DNA of 34,394 nucleotides, from the IMG/VR virus record IMGVR_UViG_3300017752_000067, positions 1-34,394 of that record, one strand, 5' to 3'. The stretch comes from a virus. Below the pieces are notes generated by a model. That model ran no database searches, was not told the DNA's origin, and saw only the letters and a list, made by a program, of their open reading frames with translations. Positions 12,503-34,394 of the stretch are shown here, one piece after another (position 1 is the first letter of the stretch; the number at the start of each line of letters is the position of its first letter). A program made the position numbers and the translations under genes.

Positions 12503-13642
12503 ATGAAATTACAAGTAAAAGAAGTTAGTGGAAATGAAAAATCTAAAGCTGAAATAGAAGAGCAGTTACTGCAAAAACACGAAGAAACTACATCTCAGGA
12601 AAAACCTGTAGATAAAGTAGAAGAAGTAAAGGTAGAAGCTCCAGAGCAAGCAAAAGAAGTTGAAACTAAAGAAGTTGAAAATACTTCTAAAGATATACCT
12701 GAATCATCAGGGGTAAATGATGATAACGTTCTTTCATATATAAAAGAAAGATACAATAAAGACATTGAATCAGTTGATCAATTATTTGAGACCAAAGAAT
12801 CAAATGAAAAATTACCTGAAGATGTTTTAAAGTATTTTGAGTATAAAAAAGAAACTGGTCGTGGAATCGAAGACTTTTATAAATTACAAAAAGACTACGA
12901 TAACATGGAAGAAGACGCAGTGATAGCTGATTATATGTCTATTCAAGAAGAAGGTTTGGATGCTATTGATATTCAAGACTTAATGGATGACAAGTTTGGA
13001 TATGATGAAGATGATGATGAAAAAGATATTAGAAAAATAAAATTAGCTAAAAAAAGAGAACTTGCTAAGGCACGTAAGTTTTTTACTGAACAGAAAGATA
13101 AATATAAAATTCCTCTTGAGTCAAGCAGGGATGGATTATCTGATGATCAGGAAAAAAAATTAAGTGACTATAATAAGTATATAGAGGAATCAAAAACAAT
13201 TGCTGAAAGTAATGAAAAGCGATATGATTACTTTTTAAGCCGCACTAAAGAAGTGTTTAACAATGAGTTCAAAGGTTTTGAATTTGAGGTTGGTGAAAAA
13301 AAGATTAATTATAAACCAGGTACAGCAGATGAATTGATGAACAAGCAGTCAGACGTAAACAACTTTGTAAATAAATACATTAACAAAGATGGTTTAATGT
13401 CAGATGCAAATGGATACCATAAAGCCTTATCGGTTGCAATGAATCCAGAAAAGTTTGCTCAGTTCTTTTATGACCAAGGTGTTGCAGCAGCAGTGGATGA
13501 TGTTACACGTAAATCCAAAAACATTAATATGGATGTACGTAAATCGCCACAGCTATCAACAAAAGATGGTTTAAAGATTCGCCCAATTGGTGACAGTAGT
13601 AGCGGAAGAGGACTCAAAATTAGAAGTATTAAAAAAAATTAA
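12503..13642 (+). CDS. Scaffold-like capsid assembly protein
   Basis: 379 residues, immediately upstream of the capsid gene and sharing its transcript. The N-terminal 75 residues are Glu/Lys/Val-rich and probably disordered. The middle is very acidic and helical (DDKFGYDEDDDEKDIRKIK around 165-183; coiled-coil stretches to about 250). The C-terminus turns basic and contains the motif GLKIR-x-I twice, at 356-362 (GLKIRPI) and 370-376 (GLKIRSI). Scaffold proteins commonly bind the capsid through a small basic C-terminal element, so the order acidic helical body plus basic tail fits. There is no protease motif. Assignment by position and composition. Confidence 0.65.
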   Translation: MKLQVKEVSGNEKSKAEIEEQLLQKHEETTSQEKPVDKVEEVKVEAPEQAKEVETKEVENTSKDIPESSGVNDDNVLSYIKERYNKDIESVDQLFETKESNEKLPEDVLKYFEYKKETGRGIEDFYKLQKDYDNMEEDAVIADYMSIQEEGLDAIDIQDLMDDKFGYDEDDDEKDIRKIKLAKKRELAKARKFFTEQKDKYKIPLESSRDGLSDDQEKKLSDYNKYIEESKTIAESNEKRYDYFLSRTKEVFNNEFKGFEFEVGEKKINYKPGTADELMNKQSDVNNFVNKYINKDGLMSDANGYHKALSVAMNPEKFAQFFYDQGVAAAVDDVTRKSKNINMDVRKSPQLSTKDGLKIRPIGDSSSGRGLKIRSIKKN

Positions 13643-25959: not shown

Positions 25960-26721
25960 ATGGCAGTAACAACAGCAGCAGTAATAGGTATTGGTACAGG
26001 TTTAGCAAGTGCAGGGATGTCTTTCTCTGATGCTGCTAAACAAAAACGAGCAGCAAACAAAGCAGCACAGGATCAGAAAAAACTTATGGCAGATGCCAGG
26101 CAAAAAGCTGAAAAAGATTTTTATGCAGGTCTTAACGTTCCTTTAGATGCGTTTGGAGAACAGTATCGACAAAATATTGCTGGACAACAACAAACAATTC
26201 AAGCTCTTCAAGAAGGAGATACTCGTAATTTAGTAGGAGGAGTTGCTAACCTTACTGCAGCTGCAGCTCAAGGTGCAGAACAAACACGTATTGGTATGGG
26301 TGAGGCTCTGTATGACAACAGAAAAATGAAGGCTGATTCAAGACAAAACATTAACCAACAATTACTACAAATGGACGTTGGTGCTGCGGCAGATGAATCT
26401 ATGAGAGAGCGAGATCTTTTAGAAGCAAGAGCTGCTAATATACAAAGTGGTATTGCTGGAGTTGGAACAGCAGCTCAAGGTATAGCAAGTTTAGCTCCTC
26501 TTTATGGTAGAAGCGGTGGACAAGGAAGAGCAGAAAGACTTTTTTCTGAAATTGATACAGACCAAGTAAGTAAAGCAGCGGGAGGTAATTTATCTCGAGC
26601 TCAAACAATAAATACTTTAAGACAGCAGGGTTATTCAGGTAAGGATGCCAGGAATTTAATAAGGGGTAATCAAGAGTTTGATTACAGTATATTTGGTGGA
26701 CTTTATACAAAACCACAATAG
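25960..26721 (+). CDS. Candidate ejected internal virion protein 1 (gp14/gp7-like)
   Basis: 253 residues, Ala/Gln/Gly-rich and helical. The N-terminus has a Gly/Ala-rich hydrophobic segment (VIGIGTGLASAGMSF, 8-22) followed by a long Lys/Ala/Gln helix (KQKRAANKAAQDQKKLMADA), and a second small-residue hydrophobic stretch lies near 160-182 (SGIAGVGTAAQGIASLAPLY). This small membrane-inserting helical type is typical of podovirus internal proteins ejected with DNA, encoded upstream of larger ejection proteins, as here. It starts one base after the GNAT stop. Functional call inferred from composition and order. Confidence 0.6.
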   Translation: MAVTTAAVIGIGTGLASAGMSFSDAAKQKRAANKAAQDQKKLMADARQKAEKDFYAGLNVPLDAFGEQYRQNIAGQQQTIQALQEGDTRNLVGGVANLTAAAAQGAEQTRIGMGEALYDNRKMKADSRQNINQQLLQMDVGAAADESMRERDLLEARAANIQSGIAGVGTAAQGIASLAPLYGRSGGQGRAERLFSEIDTDQVSKAAGGNLSRAQTINTLRQQGYSGKDARNLIRGNQEFDYSIFGGLYTKPQ

Positions 26722-28743: not shown

Positions 28744-31700
28744 ATGGCGATAGGAAAAGACATAAAAGATCTGTATGATATATTGGTTAAACAAGAATTA
28801 ACAGACAAAAGCTTTGATGAGTTTAAATCTGCTGTTGAAGATGAACAGTATAGAAATTTAGTCTATGAGGTTTTAATAGATAGGAATCTATACAAAGGAG
28901 AAAAAACTCAGTTTGATGATAACTATTTTTTTGAGTTTACTCCTGCAGGTATTCAAAAAAAAAAAAACGTTTCCGATGGAACTTTTCAAGAGGAAAATAT
29001 GGAATCCACTTCAGATCTTCAAGGTCTGAATGGTTCATCGGAGTCTTTAACAATTCAAAATGAAGTAGATTCAAGAGGCGATGTCATCAATCCTTTTGAA
29101 AGAAGTCAATCAAGTTTACCACCAGCACCTAAAGAATTAGAGAATCCAGTAGGAACAAGATATGGAGCTAATGTTCAGGTAGGAGAAAAAGATACCTGGC
29201 TTGAAGAAATGCTTGGTAAAAATACTGTTACTGATTTTTTTGGTGATATGTGGAGAGCAGGGCAACAGGGTCTTGGACAAGGTGCAACTGTTGATGATGC
29301 AATAAACTTATACGCAAGCGGTTCATCAATATCAGAAGAAGACTTACAAGAATACATTAAGAGTGTAGAGGAAATGGAAAGTCTTGGAATGTCTGATGAG
29401 ATGAAGAGTTTCAATAAAATCTACGAAAATAATGGTGGTGGTGTTTTAGGTTTTGTTTTAGGAGCTGGTTCAAATCCCAGTGTATTAGGACAATTACTTG
29501 TTTCTTCAATTGCATCTATGGTAAACCCAACGGTTGCTGCAGGTGCAGGTGCAGGTGCTGCTACAGGTGCTGCTACAGGTGCTGCTATAGGAGCAGCAGG
29601 AGGTCCACTTGCTGCACTTACAGGTGCAGGTGGAACTATAACAGGAGCACTTATGGGTGCAGGTGCAACTCTCGAAACAGGTTTATCGTTCACAGAATTT
29701 TTAAAAGAAGAAATAGATAAGAAAGGATTGTCTTTCAATCAAGAAGGCATTCGTGCGGTATTAGAAGATGAAGACGCTTTACAAAGTATAAGAAATAGAT
29801 CAGCTGCTCGAGGTATTGCTATTGGTGCAATAGACGGCCTTACAAGGGGTGTAGCTGGCAAGTTGGCTGGTAAAGGAGTGAAAGCTGCTAAAGAGGCAGG
29901 TAAGGTTGTTACAAAAGGAATGAAGGGTAAAGCCGCTTTAGGGGCTGCCTTGATTGAAGGTGTTGGTGGATCGACTGGAGAGGTTGCAGGTAGAGTTGTA
30001 TCTGGTCAAGATATGGATACTGCTGAAATTTTATTTGAAGGTGTAACAGGACAAGGAACTTCTGTTTTATCTGTACCTCAAGCTGTAACAGGAAAAACAG
30101 TTGTTGAGTTAGTAGCAGGAGAAAAAGGAGCTAAGGTCCAATCACAAATTGATAATTTAAAATCTGAATTAGGTCTGGGTAATTTGGTTTCAAAAGGAAT
30201 AAATGTTTTTAAACCACCTAAGTATGGTATTAAAGATAATTCAGGAAACATAACCAAGCTAAGTAAAGCTGGTATATTAGATTTTATTTCTACTGCAACT
30301 CTTGATGAAATAAGAACCATGCAGTTTGAAATAACTAACGACCCAGAATTGTCAGCTATTGTTCAGGCTAAAAAACAAAAAGCTCAAATAGGAACAGAGA
30401 TACCTTTTTATATTGAAGGGGAAGATAGGGCGAAAATGGTTGCTTTAGAACAGGAAAAAGCAAACATGAAAGATCCTGATCTTAAAATAAATAAAAAAAG
30501 ACTTTCAGATATTGAAGCAGAGTTAGATGCTATCATAGAAAAGTATGATAATGTTTTAGCGGAATCTGTTACAGTAACAGATGACCAGGGTAATACCGAT
30601 ACAAAAAATGTAATGGTAACAAAAGACTTTGCTATAGAACAGTTAGAAGCTGATGGCATTACAAATCCTACTGAGGAACAAGTAATTGAAAAACAAAAAA
30701 CTTTGTTTGAGGAGTCTAAAAAAATTGCATTACAAACATCACCACAACAAAGTGCTGAAGAAATTCGTAACTTAGCAGTAGATCAATTAGCCTCTGATGG
30801 CATCGTTGATCCAACTGAACAACAAATAATACAAAAAGTAAATGCCATTCAAGAGTCAAGCACAAAGACGGTGGATGTACAAGAATCTACCCAAGACAGC
30901 CAAGAAGTGGGAGTCGGAGACGTCCAACCTACTGAGCTTACCCAACAGGGTCAAGAAACGCAAATCGAAAACCAAACTCAACCTGGGATTGGGACGCAGA
31001 CGGAAGAGGAAATAGCAATTAATGTTGCTCCATTCTTTTCAACCAGTGTCGATAATGTAGCAGAAGCAGGTGGTGTAAGAAAAACTCCACAATACCAACA
31101 ATATAAGCAAGGTCTTATTGATTTAGCGAGTGACTTAGGAGTTGAAGTCGAAGTTGATGAATCCGTTGGTGGATATGTAAACGATGCTGGCACAAAGATA
31201 AGAGAGGTTAGCAACGTAGTTAAACTCCAAAATGCAACCTTTGATCAAGCAAAAGAATATGCTTCCTTAGCTGCCGCATTAGCTCCTGAAGTACAAGAAG
31301 CAACCATAGCTGCAGAGACTACTGAGATAGAGTCTCCAACGCATAATGCTGACGCTTTAGAAATAACAGTATCAGACCCTCAAGCCACCTTTGATGCACT
31401 GCAAGAAGTTGGTATTGATGAATATACTTTGAATGAATCGAATAATTTATTAACTTTGCTGGACGTACATGAGTTTAGAAATGATAGTTTCTTTGCTCAA
31501 CGTACCGCTTTATTAGAAAAATTAGATGAAAAAAATGTCCAATACGAACTCGGAAATTTTGAAGCGATTAACTCCGAATATATCGGAACAGACTCGCGAA
31601 GGAAAATATTATCAAATGCTCGCCAACGCCTCATACAACAAGGGCAAGAAGAAACAAACTTATATAGTAAAGTCCTCTCGGCGATAAACAGAGATGCTGA

Positions 31701-34394
31701 AGCATTAGGTATAAGCCCTAATGAATATATTCAGGTTGATGTTACCGAGCAACAAGTTACCGCTGATCCTCAGCGTGTACAAACTATCATAGATGATATC
31801 ATTGAAAAGACCAAGGGCAGGAAAGCTGGTGACAGTACCAACCCAAAGATTCTTTTAGACAACACCTTACAGTATTTACAAAACTCTAAGTTATACCAGC
31901 AGCTTGATGATGTATCAAGAAATGATTTGGTACGACAACTTAATGAACAGTTTGGTATAAAAATTAAAAGACCACCAAGTGTTAAAAAGATTTTAGGTAA
32001 GACAGCTGATAAGAAAGTTGTTGTTAACGAAAGAGTTGCTCTTAAAGATCAGATTAAAATGCAGGCAAAAGCTGCAAGACAATCTGCTGCTGCATATAAA
32101 AAATCAATTCAGAATATAGCAGCTGAAATAAAAGGACTGCGTAAGTCTGGAAAAGTTAGTCAATCAAAAGTATCGGCAATAACTTCTCGTTTTGCAAACA
32201 TTAATCTTAAGAATGAAAAATCAGTAGACAGCTTTTTAAAATTTGTAGATGATGTATTTACTAAGGCTGATCTTGCAGAAAAAATATCAAGAGCTAAGAA
32301 ACTACAGAAACGAGCTAAGAAAAATATCAAGAGCAAAGTAGGTGTGGTTTCAAAAGACTTAGAGGTTTCTTTAAAAGAAGTTCTTGGTTTTAATCCAGCT
32401 ATAATTCCAGACGCACAATTAAACTCTTACTTGCAATTGATGGAGGAGTTTGGTTCAAGCAAAGCTGTACTTGATTTAAAACAAAAATCTGAAACATTGC
32501 AACAGGCGTTAGATATTATCAACGCAGTAGAAGCTGAGGTTGATACTGATGAAAACATTGCTATTGATAATGAAACCACTCCAGATGATTATGATTTGGC
32601 GGCTAACGTAGCTGAAGCAGAATCTATTAAGATTACCTCTGAAGATATTAATAATATAGAAGATACAAGGTCACAAGACTTAGCCAGAACATTAAGTAAG
32701 TTAACTACTAAAGAAATAGAAGCACTTGCCCGTCAAAAGAAAGATGGCACAATGGACTACTCAGCTATTGAAACATTGAAAGCTGTAAAGAAAAATATAC
32801 AGAATGGATATGTTCCTAAAGCTGCAATGAAGCTTGTAAATAAAGTAGATACTAATAATAGGCAAACAAGTGTTCAACCTGTTTTAGAAAAGGTAAAAAA
32901 AGAAGGTATATATAGAAACCTTAGAAGTGCTTACCAAAAAATAAAAAGCTTAGCAACCGATAGAACTTTTTTGTTAGAACGTTTAAGATCTGGACCGTTG
33001 TTTAATGTAGATGATATATTTGGAAACTTTAACAGTAAGACTATTTACAATAATACTTTTGGTAGACTGGCTAAAGCTTTTGAAACTTATAAGTCTAAGA
33101 CAAAACAACTAACAGCTAAAATAGATGCGGCGGATAACATTCTTGAGTTTGACGGTTTAAACAAAGCAAGAAAAGCATCTCGTGCAGGGCGTTCAAGAAA
33201 TGCAATAGTAAAAGCTAAGTATAAAATTAGAATGTTACAATTGCAAAGAGAGTATTTGTCTAACTTTAAAGATGGTAAACCAAACAGTAAAGCTCCTTCA
33301 GCTCTTGCTTTTGTAGATGCAACTCTTAAAGATATTAAAAACAAAGATATACTTTCAGCTCAAGACGAAAAGATATTACAGGATTTACGTGAAAAGTTTA
33401 TAGAAGGAGATCAGTTAAGTTTAGAAAAATTACAAGAGTCTTTAACTACAGGAGAGAAGAAAGCTCTGGCTTTATATGACGAAGTAAATAATAGCTTAGC
33501 AGAAAAAGCTATGTTTATATCTACCATGCACGGTAATCAAGTAGACTTATTAAATAATTATAGTCATCATTCTGTAATACTGACAGGGACGGATGCGGTT
33601 ACTGAACTAAATAATAAAACTAAAAATTATGTTGACACTGTAAATGGTGCAACCAATGCTAACACAGTAAAAGAAAGAACCCCTGGAGCTAAAGCAATTA
33701 GTTTTGATCCATCTTACTCAGCAATACGTGGAGTTCAGCAGACCAACATGGATTACTACATGACTCAGACACTACAACAAGTTGGGGGGTTACTTAATAA
33801 AATGAAATCGGATTTAGAAAATAATCCAAAAGCTTCCAAAATGTCCGTTACCGCTGCAAATGCATTAGTAAAATCAATGAATGAAGTAGTCGAAAATGTT
33901 TTTATGCAGTCTTATGTAGAAGCTGGTGCAGGTAGTGCTTTTATAGAAAAAATTAAAAGATTAGGATATCAATCAGCACTTGCTTCAGCTCCAAGAGCTA
34001 TTGCAGAATTGGCAGGTAACTTTGCAGTGTTTGCATCAAACCCTGCCCGAGCTTCAAGAGCTTTAAAAAACTTTGGGGGTTTATCTACCGACCCAAGAAA
34101 TACTGCTTTAGGATTTGATATACTAACTGCTTTAGGTTCTGGAGTAACAAGTAAACTATTTGATTCAGATGCTTTACAAAGTAAGTATTCTAACATATCA
34201 GACTTTGCTAATCCAAACCAAAGTTCTGGACAAGCTGTAAGTAGAATGGAAAATGTTTTGGGACAAGTAGCAAAGTTTAGTGGATTAAAACAAACAGCTT
34301 CAGTAGTAAATGATATAGCTAATAAAACTCTATCGTATCCTGATCAAATACTTTCAAGACCTATGTGGTTTGGTAGTTTTGCTGATGCATTCGC
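28744..34394 (+). CDS. Giant virion-associated / ejection protein (3' partial)
   Basis: An uninterrupted frame from ATG 28744 (3 bases after the previous stop) to the window end: at least 1883 residues with no stop. A polar N-terminus contains a Lys run coded by A13 (residues 72-74). Residues about 245-330 are a long Gly/Ala glycine-zipper hydrophobic stretch (FVLGAGSNPSVLGQLLVSSI; GAGAGAATGAATGAAIGAA), and a second one lies near 360-430. Helical segments follow, with a repeated motif at 632-651 and 680-697. Then come a Gln/Thr/Glu linker (about 703-757), an alpha/beta segment (760-1045), and a long Lys-rich helical region with coiled coils to about 1600. A region near 1745-1790 (YQSALASAPRAIAELAGNFAVF) resembles membrane-active parts of giant phage proteins. 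Likely ejected with the DNA. No DxDGD-type polymerase motif is seen in this part. Confidence 0.75.
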   Translation, partial: MAIGKDIKDLYDILVKQELTDKSFDEFKSAVEDEQYRNLVYEVLIDRNLYKGEKTQFDDNYFFEFTPAGIQKKKNVSDGTFQEENMESTSDLQGLNGSSESLTIQNEVDSRGDVINPFERSQSSLPPAPKELENPVGTRYGANVQVGEKDTWLEEMLGKNTVTDFFGDMWRAGQQGLGQGATVDDAINLYASGSSISEEDLQEYIKSVEEMESLGMSDEMKSFNKIYENNGGGVLGFVLGAGSNPSVLGQLLVSSIASMVNPTVAAGAGAGAATGAATGAAIGAAGGPLAALTGAGGTITGALMGAGATLETGLSFTEFLKEEIDKKGLSFNQEGIRAVLEDEDALQSIRNRSAARGIAIGAIDGLTRGVAGKLAGKGVKAAKEAGKVVTKGMKGKAALGAALIEGVGGSTGEVAGRVVSGQDMDTAEILFEGVTGQGTSVLSVPQAVTGKTVVELVAGEKGAKVQSQIDNLKSELGLGNLVSKGINVFKPPKYGIKDNSGNITKLSKAGILDFISTATLDEIRTMQFEITNDPELSAIVQAKKQKAQIGTEIPFYIEGEDRAKMVALEQEKANMKDPDLKINKKRLSDIEAELDAIIEKYDNVLAESVTVTDDQGNTDTKNVMVTKDFAIEQLEADGITNPTEEQVIEKQKTLFEESKKIALQTSPQQSAEEIRNLAVDQLASDGIVDPTEQQIIQKVNAIQESSTKTVDVQESTQDSQEVGVGDVQPTELTQQGQETQIENQTQPGIGTQTEEEIAINVAPFFSTSVDNVAEAGGVRKTPQYQQYKQGLIDLASDLGVEVEVDESVGGYVNDAGTKIREVSNVVKLQNATFDQAKEYASLAAALAPEVQEATIAAETTEIESPTHNADALEITVSDPQATFDALQEVGIDEYTLNESNNLLTLLDVHEFRNDSFFAQRTALLEKLDEKNVQYELGNFEAINSEYIGTDSRRKILSNARQRLIQQGQEETNLYSKVLSAINRDAEALGISPNEYIQVDVTEQQVTADPQRVQTIIDDIIEKTKGRKAGDSTNPKILLDNTLQYLQNSKLYQQLDDVSRNDLVRQLNEQFGIKIKRPPSVKKILGKTADKKVVVNERVALKDQIKMQAKAARQSAAAYKKSIQNIAAEIKGLRKSGKVSQSKVSAITSRFANINLKNEKSVDSFLKFVDDVFTKADLAEKISRAKKLQKRAKKNIKSKVGVVSKDLEVSLKEVLGFNPAIIPDAQLNSYLQLMEEFGSSKAVLDLKQKSETLQQALDIINAVEAEVDTDENIAIDNETTPDDYDLAANVAEAESIKITSEDINNIEDTRSQDLARTLSKLTTKEIEALARQKKDGTMDYSAIETLKAVKKNIQNGYVPKAAMKLVNKVDTNNRQTSVQPVLEKVKKEGIYRNLRSAYQKIKSLATDRTFLLERLRSGPLFNVDDIFGNFNSKTIYNNTFGRLAKAFETYKSKTKQLTAKIDAADNILEFDGLNKARKASRAGRSRNAIVKAKYKIRMLQLQREYLSNFKDGKPNSKAPSALAFVDATLKDIKNKDILSAQDEKILQDLREKFIEGDQLSLEKLQESLTTGEKKALALYDEVNNSLAEKAMFISTMHGNQVDLLNNYSHHSVILTGTDAVTELNNKTKNYVDTVNGATNANTVKERTPGAKAISFDPSYSAIRGVQQTNMDYYMTQTLQQVGGLLNKMKSDLENNPKASKMSVTAANALVKSMNEVVENVFMQSYVEAGAGSAFIEKIKRLGYQSALASAPRAIAELAGNFAVFASNPARASRALKNFGGLSTDPRNTALGFDILTALGSGVTSKLFDSDALQSKYSNISDFANPNQSSGQAVSRMENVLGQVAKFSGLKQTASVVNDIANKTLSYPDQILSRPMWFGSFADAF
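28955..28967 (+). other. A13 homopolymer in the giant gene
   Basis: Thirteen consecutive A within codons 71-75 (Gln-Lys-Lys-Lys-Asn) of the giant gene. The frame is continuous across it as written. Loss or gain of one A would lead to early stops roughly 20-35 codons on. Confidence 0.85.
29554..29589 (+). repeat. 12-bp tandem repeat (three copies) in the glycine-zipper segment
   Basis: GGTGCTGCTACA is repeated twice and followed by GGTGCTGCTATA, preceded by GCAGGT hexamers from about 29539. It encodes GAAT-GAAT-GAAI in the membrane-type segment of the giant protein. Confidence 0.85.
30631..30834 (+). repeat. Internal duplicated motif in the giant protein
   Basis: Residues 632-651 (EQLEADGITNPTEEQVIEKQ) and 680-697 (DQLASDGIVDPTEQQIIQ) share the pattern (E/D)QLxxDGIxxPTExQxIxK/Q, 48 residues apart. 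This is a degenerate protein-level repeat just before the Gln/Thr-rich linker. Confidence 0.75.

Follow-up and report, generated by a model that had tools for sequence, protein, structure and literature searches.

Toward its 3′ end, a phage contig carries a giant gene in which one stretch is written with codons unlike those of the other genes. Is this patch the trace of a domain brought in by recombination, as the preliminary description proposed, or does something else dictate its third codon positions? The window, by which we mean the whole stretch of DNA analyzed, is an entire IMG/VR phage record of 34,394 bases, and the gene concerned is the following.

28744 to 34392, plus strand: giant gene, 1883 codons, 3′ end cut by the contig end, phrog_32588 family

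The phrog_32588 profile matches the giant protein with an E value of 8.4e-93, best over residues 143 to 438. Three complete homologues measure 2133 to 2301 aa, and the window protein is 49 to 51% identical to the first three full-length homologues. By its position, the giant gene is probably the last of three ejection or internal-virion genes; this role is suggested by synteny together with the weak match of the gene at 25960 to 26721 to the internal virion protein phrog_805 (E = 0.009). The latter gene also matches the virion structural protein phrog_13764 (E = 1e-8) and is probably the start of the trio.

Relatives were gathered by IMG/VR scans that yielded close homologues, the alignment of which then gave 104 loci; the best 80 of these and the first six make up the 86 loci used below, some of which lie on the same contig. 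The terminase of the window matches 87 phage records at an E value of 1e-5, among them records named after Flavobacterium (68), Cellulophaga (15), Tenacibaculum (2), and Maribacter (1). No match of the giant protein was found in annotated phages by tblastn at E = 0.01, while a profile of the giant proteins later matched gp21 of an elemovirus (E = 4e-24) and the giant protein of MW202828 (E = 6e-39). In two relatives (L017, 7480 to 14054; L019, 7480 to 14065) the giant gene is broken into two open reading frames (ORFs), by a sequencing error or a real break.

The patch had been described as a cluster of ACC, GTC, CTC, CGC, and TCG codons with raised G+C. The line counts given for it are exact (32/60 at 30901, 27/60 at 30961, and 26/60 at 31621, against 15/60 at 30481), and the shift is real: at synonymous sites, no other 341-codon window of the contig deviates as much as residues 703 to 1043. 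These hold 102 G/C-ending codons at synonymously variable sites, whereas the codon usage of the contig itself predicts 52.7 (z = 7.5). The maximum of the scan, which ran over 25 genes, was 7.54, a value reached by 0 of 2000 synonymous resamplings (their maximum, 6.80), and the synonymous chi-square of the segment, 294, exceeds those of all 437 windows compared. ACC makes up 12 of 30 Thr codons in the segment versus 27 of 762 in the other genes, and GTC (6 of 27 versus 13 of 622) and CTC (4 of 26 versus 5 of 654) are likewise enriched; CGC (2 of 11) and TCG (3 of 21), though named with them, are few.

The shift is not uniform, and it is best followed along the features of the segment.

30822 to 30841, plus strand: A-rich stretch ahead of the ATG of gene A, with a stop in the frame of A immediately before the ATG
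30842 to 31015, plus strand: nested gene A, +1 frame, 57 aa, giant residues 700 to 757
31015 to 31743, plus strand: alpha/beta module in the giant frame, residues about 758 to 1000
31526 to 31687, plus strand: putative nested gene B, +1 frame, 53 aa, giant residues 928 to 981
31687 to 31872, plus strand: residual excess of G/C at third codon positions (GC3), residues 982 to 1043, window specific, with no peak in homologues

The observed and expected numbers of G/C-ending codons are 25 and 8.9 in residues 700 to 757 (z = 6.0), 37 and 26.0 in 758 to 927 (z = 2.4), 19 and 8.8 in 928 to 981 (z = 3.8), and 22 and 9.5 in 982 to 1043 (z = 4.5). Only the 700-to-757 and 928-to-981 stretches are peaks that persist in homologues. 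GC3 was compared in 18 aligned giant genes, namely, the window's and 17 others, with near copies included and rows not deduplicated. A peak at residues 701 to 750 reaches a z of about 2.7 or more in 16 of the 18, with the module present or absent; it is found in L014, L018, and L025, which are without the module, and the exceptions are L029 (z = 1.3) and L020 (z = 0.6, with a peak of its own, z = 4.1, at 851 to 900). The second peak lies at 951 to 1000 (mean z = 2.05). Both recurring peaks coincide with ORFs nested in the +1 frame, in homologues that are about 50% identical in protein.

Foreign DNA that arrived by recombination and has kept an unameliorated composition could also produce a deviant segment, and two observations are in keeping with it: the module, with identities that disagree with those of the flanks, is found in some relatives and missing or swapped in others, and the window retains a GC3 excess outside A and B (59 versus 35.5 expected, z = 4.4). 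Against it, the peaks stand at the same places in diverged genes, the first regardless of the module, and between them (bins 751 to 900) the mean z over the aligned genes is only −0.3 to 0.4. Synonymous codons are moreover conserved, which a foreign origin does not predict: in 129 gene pairs, the codons of shared residues at 701 to 725 are identical in 0.930 of cases versus 0.566 expected. We regard a foreign origin as improbable for the patch and as largely refuted for A and B. The codon shift is very probably not mainly a signature of foreign DNA and, in an explanation that includes B, mainly the footprint of two nested +1 genes. The third base of the giant codon is the second base of the nested codon, and the nested residues favor C or G there, hence the rise in GC3; the nested proteins, rich in Arg, Pro, Ser, Thr, Trp, and Gly, would thus push the giant frame to C/G-ending codons. 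Of the roughly 50 surplus G/C-ending codons in residues 700 to 1043 of the window, about 26 can be attributed to A and B; the rises at 758 to 927 and at 982 to 1043 are not accounted for by these two. What exceeds expectation outside them is found chiefly in residues 982 to 1043, where no conserved ORF was found behind it; this tract (31687 to 31872) might be a small exchanged piece. A compositional anomaly inside a gene, then, need not mean foreign DNA.

Synonymous identity is also high at residues 51 to 75 (0.871), together with a conserved AAA AAA AAA run. The run belongs to a Lys stretch at 28954 to 28968 of the window (giant residues 71 to 75) and is present in 17 of the 17 aligned giants covering it; in the window it consists of 13 consecutive A's and is a possible slippage site past a short N-terminal domain. 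A third nested gene at residues 51 to 75 was not adopted, the signal there being accompanied by this run.

The product of gene A is MPFKSQAQRRWM...RKRK. Third-position divergence among 11 module carriers is 0.127 in A and 0.31 in B, compared with 0.45 to 0.55 in the other regions listed. In 48-codon windows beginning at residue 131 or later, the values for A (0.148) and B (0.309) fall below all 1499 windows outside them, of which the lowest (0.366) starts at residue 880, just upstream of B. At the wobble position within A, 380 of 387 single changes are silent in A, whereas 63 control windows average 0.55 with a maximum of 0.78; the amino acid difference in the +1 frame is 0.185 for A versus a control minimum of 0.517. 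In single genomes, shuffling the codons keeps the ORF of A intact in 1 to 15% of draws. Constraint is found in both frames of A, and its ORF is conserved across diverged relatives, so that, at the level of sequence comparison, dual-frame constraint and ORF conservation are both demonstrated for A. The Gln/Thr-rich linker that had been noted at the head of the segment does exist as a sequence and is gene A translated in the giant frame.

Nucleotides could likewise be frozen by a conserved RNA structure or cis element; codons are conserved, and in some homologues A is predicted to form a 7-bp hairpin. Yet folding z-scores of six homologues range from −1.62 to 0.75, and the substitutions track the reading frame of A, as the 380 silent changes indicate. 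Rfam searches of seven sources at the gathering score gave a tRNA in L050 as the sole match. The window holds no Rfam family at the gathering score, and at a permissive threshold positions 30600 to 32000 gave only two matches, with E values of 7 to 9 and far under the gathering scores; no tRNA or tmRNA was found in L064, L066, L074, or L051. We hold an RNA element to be exceedingly improbable as the cause of the constraint.

A nucleotide profile of this stretch detected it in the majority of related loci, where it lies in frame within the giant gene. With a protein profile, A is nested in 59 of the 86 loci (43 once near-identical or same-contig loci are removed), outside the giant gene in 3, and at its end in 1 (L051). 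The profile did not find A in the remaining 23 loci, 8 of which (L003, L006, L024, L031, L038, L040, L052, and L069) start after or stop before a readable A, judging by coordinates; among 14 records without A at the locus, 8 have a match elsewhere in the record. PHROG, Pfam, and NCBIfam gave no match to the A of the window itself. In annotated phages, A is nested in the +1 frame within gp21 of Flavobacterium phage elemoA_7-9A (NC_055852), with its start at position 54224 of that record, and within an 11.6-kb gene of MW202828. The elemovirus A as query retrieved 69 records, that is, 68 Flavobacterium phages (RefSeq copies included) and MW202828. Among the 60 matches listed, none has a CDS name for A and only the host gene is named, and the tables of NC_055852 and MW202828 contain no CDS for A. 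In the annotated phage records examined, A thus appears to be a conserved gene missed by annotation.

All 59 nested copies in loci L001 to L086 are in the +1 frame, as would be expected if A were no independent protein and were made by +1 frameshifting on the giant gene. A stop in the frame of A, however, lies 0 to 20 codons ahead of the ATG in 59 of 59 nested loci (immediately ahead of it in the window), which argues that A is not a frameshift product. The upstream contexts of 20 A starts fall at percentiles 0.64 to 0.99 of 1756 internal ATGs, and A also exists as a free gene (see below); frameshifting is accordingly very improbable in our judgment. Taken together, 20 A and 11 B starts stand at percentiles 0.64 to 1.00 of the 1756 internal ATGs and 0.08 to 0.77 of 291 likely real starts. 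Their contexts are start-like without being strong and are mostly weaker than those of real starts. Contexts of a non-Shine-Dalgarno kind agree with what has been described for Flavobacterium (PMC6847099).

Outside the giant gene, A was found in several arrangements. In L064, L066, and L074, it stands as an ORF of its own immediately past the giant stop (the L064 protein is MPFKSQAQRKWMYANKPEMAKEWEDETPPGRLP...), and the host-equivalent frame of A carries 9 to 11 stops. A scan with A found at least 489 encoding stretches in IMG/VR, from which 80 loci were kept. Loci L112 to L207 contain 94 A ORFs, of which 60 lie in a longer ORF (59 of them in +1) and 34 are free; many of these loci with a nested A are contigs already in the sample. 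A +2-frame nesting in L191 is probably due to chance, the surrounding ORF having 158 codons and no match to the giant profile. For 31 free genes, namely, the 3 after giants and 28 of the 34 (6 copies, fusions, or ORFs with no clear start being excluded), the host-equivalent frame has stops in 26, and the 5 without stops are GC rich (0.58 to 0.61); in nested copies the host frame is open by definition.

In three further loci, A is nested in +1 within a second kind of gene. The ORFs of L170, L196, and L201 have 410, 289 (cut), and 405 codons and lie downstream of a portal gene; those of L170 and L201 are themselves followed by a capsid-like gene. In L201, the one locus tested for this, the neighbors are portal phrog_6547 and structural phrog_13704. 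The window has a homologue of this host gene.

12503 to 13642, plus strand: scaffold-position gene, between the portal gene and the probable capsid gene; its L201 homologue has a nested A near the N terminus

The L201 host gene and the window gene are 37% identical over 275 aligned columns (E = 3e-53), and the A profile found nothing in the window gene. The giant-protein profile matches the L170, L196, and L201 host genes only around the reading of A, so the shared peptide DAVQESS..VDV.EL is the shadow of A in two dissimilar proteins. At the sequence level, A is shown to be nested in two host genes that have no similarity outside A.

A profile of the free-type giants matches the C-terminal part, up to near the ends, in 12 of 18 nested-type giants. 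Because this match reaches near the ends, A in those 12 would have been relocated by more than 1000 codons and not overrun through loss of a stop. Only the N-terminal part is matched in L033, L054, and L079, and nothing in L043, L050, and L057.

More distant relatives of A are also on record. Positions 17 to 69 of phrog_1375 (70 aa) match A relatives from L064 (E = 1e-4) and L074 (6e-5), the nested A of L016 (0.005), and the free A of L149, L187, and L205 (1e-4 to 1e-3), as well as L190 (2e-5) and L159 (0.003). Over ten scanned relatives the E values run from 2e-5 to 0.17; the matches are weak, and the window's A has none. Phage C75C1 has an A-like ORF (tblastn, E = 0.001) that is unannotated and overlaps the start of a short CDS and is not inside a long ORF, and gene 48 of Streptomyces phage FlowerPower is A-like (tblastn, E = 0.02) and stands between genes named peptidase and holin. 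At L190 (3365 to 4015), L207 (3556 to 4206), and L159 (4001 to 4672), an A-like sequence heads a longer protein.

These occurrences bear on whether A was born de novo, by overprinting within the giant gene, and later escaped. Nesting is the commonest state in a tree of 62 N-terminal regions (nested, 44; after or at the giant end, 4; none in the locus, 14; 5 changes), which would fit such a birth; the tree is unrooted, was made by a quick method, and has some long branches. The A-like ORFs outside long ORFs in other phages (C75C1, FlowerPower, and the 34 free ORFs in IMG/VR loci) and the nesting in a second host gene speak against it, and we judge a de novo origin in the giant gene to be highly unlikely. 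The tree does not settle the direction, and the swallowing of A is the direction that we infer.

What, then, of the domain that the patch was thought to contain? A compact alpha/beta part had been recognized, and AlphaFold predicts one at residues about 758 to 1000 (pLDDT 88.6, pTM 0.84). The segment is not common to all homologous genes, since some lack the module: it is present in 12 of 16 aligned genes and absent or replaced in L014, L018, L020, and L025, so the question whether relatives without it exist is answered by yes. Scanning with the module recovered 19 loci that have it. Between pairs of genes, its identities disagree with those of the flanking residues. L009 and L023 are 85% identical in residues 1100 to 1883 and 53% in 861 to 1000, L022 and L013 are 94% and 54%, and L013 and L007 are 57% and 93%. 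By sequence comparison, exchange of the module among these phages is shown. The proposal of a recombination-acquired domain thus survives insofar as the module is exchanged among relatives, and is not supported where it reads a foreign origin into the codon shift. Residues 1010 to 1090 exist in two unlike versions, one in L013, L014, L020, L021, L022, and L025 and one in the others; the division crosses the module types and suggests another recombination point.

A likeness to domains of phage polyvalent proteins had also been suggested, and it is borne out by partial structural matches, one of them so named, and not by a Pfam LPD match. The best viral structure match of the predicted module is A0A516LWZ3 (E = 4e-25, 39% identity, TM 0.84). 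Seventeen further matches at E ≤ 0.001 are partial (TM 0.35 to 0.54) and mostly in large uncultured-phage or unnamed entries; many partial matches lie in phage entries of 770 to 1440 residues and some in proteins of about 210 to 265 residues from phages and giant viruses, and one is named "large polyvalent protein associated domain-containing." Thirteen module sequences were compared with Pfam, and none of the matches at E ≤ 0.1 is to an LPD family; the Pfam and PHROG matches of these members are weak and do not agree with one another. The module alone found no match in phages by tblastn and none in the PDB at E ≤ 0.001. A further structural comparison gave tandem ferredoxin-like folds, namely, the AcrB porter (Z 9.3, rmsd 3.6, 164 aligned) and a phage SAM lyase (Z 8.2, rmsd 3.4, 106 aligned); this arrangement is common, and we draw no function from it.

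Gene B sits in the right-hand part of the module. In the 16 aligned genes, all 12 module carriers have a second +1 ORF of 47 to 53 codons with a common stop site, and the 4 without the module are also without B. In L001 to L089 a B profile had no good match (E < 1) outside those carriers and their duplicates. A scan with B gave 16 loci, including L124 (which matches the giant profile) and L116 (host ORF of 1089 codons), both on new contigs, and B is also present in L112, a new contig from the module scan. By tblastn, B alone had no match in phages at E = 10. When codons are shuffled, its ORF survives in 0.02 to 10% of draws per genome. The constraint at residues 934 to 981 may have another cause, for example a recent exchange of the module, in which case B would not be a gene: the codons upstream of B are also somewhat conserved, the module bearing it is exchanged among relatives, and the silent-change fraction of B, 0.71, is inside the control range. 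Opposed to this are a third-position divergence lower than in every window outside A and B, a +1-frame protein (amino acid difference, 0.453) more conserved than in 63 of 63 control windows, and a stop identical in 12 of 12 carriers. We find this alternative rather unlikely; on the sequence evidence, B is well supported as a gene, less firmly than A.

Our explanation of the patch, which we consider very likely as a whole, is that it is mainly due to two +1 nested genes, A having been swallowed by the giant gene and B lying in an exchanged module. A would be an existing, widespread small phage gene, and B would lie within the right part of an alpha/beta module passed among these phages by recombination. 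Ribosomes in the giant frame would read the DNA of A as a Gln/Ser/Thr/Glu/Val linker, while A would initiate at its own ATG, independently, on the late mRNA.

As to what A does, its predicted structure (pLDDT 75) consists of two short helices and a basic tail that is disordered. Of 7 free-A loci, picked from 18 listed for their long neighbors, 5 have a gene for a terminase, portal, or head-tail adaptor nearby (L187, L175, L150, L182, and L194; not L172 or L203). Our best guess, which we put forward tentatively, makes A a small basic late protein, one that may act with DNA in packaging, assembly, or delivery. Nearly an even proposition, to our mind, is the wider idea that A is a movable late-gene cassette, swallowed more than once by virion-assembly genes (ejection and scaffold) and always in +1, whose shadow frame was purged of stops to become a disordered linker, the nesting being selected because it ties the dose and timing of A to those of the host protein. 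What was already an established small gene seems to have been taken up into two host genes in one phase and retained across diverged phages, and the nested A loci could serve as a natural test set for how dual coding starts and is maintained.

In the literature within reach, which leaves out most subscription papers, we recognized no description of this nested arrangement. Among named families and phages, the giant gene belongs to phrog_32588, which has no named function, and its ejection role comes from synteny, as does its likeness to the internal virion or ejection proteins of T7-like phages. Gp21 of elemoA_7-9A, annotated as a structural protein, ends a structural cluster as the window giant does, in agreement with the profile match noted above. 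Phrog_1375 is a family of unknown function linked to A weakly and through relatives; the nesting seen here is absent from its entry. Polyvalent proteins with LPD domains (PMC5512222) resemble the module by the one structural match so named and differ in that no Pfam LPD family was matched. An out-of-frame HNH insertion in the methylase of phage ShiLan (PMC11855218) is alike in that a protein gene in another frame sits in a phage gene whose own frame stays open. It differs in that A is kept across a diverged phage group, is free in others, and is nested in probable virion-assembly genes; the window's A, of 57 aa with two short helices and a basic tail, matched no nuclease family in Pfam or NCBIfam. 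With viral overlapping genes (PMC8227390), the arrangement shares two proteins encoded by one stretch in different frames. Overprinting is usually described as a new protein arising inside an old gene, whereas the nested A belongs to a wider family and the linker in the host frame is the likely newcomer.
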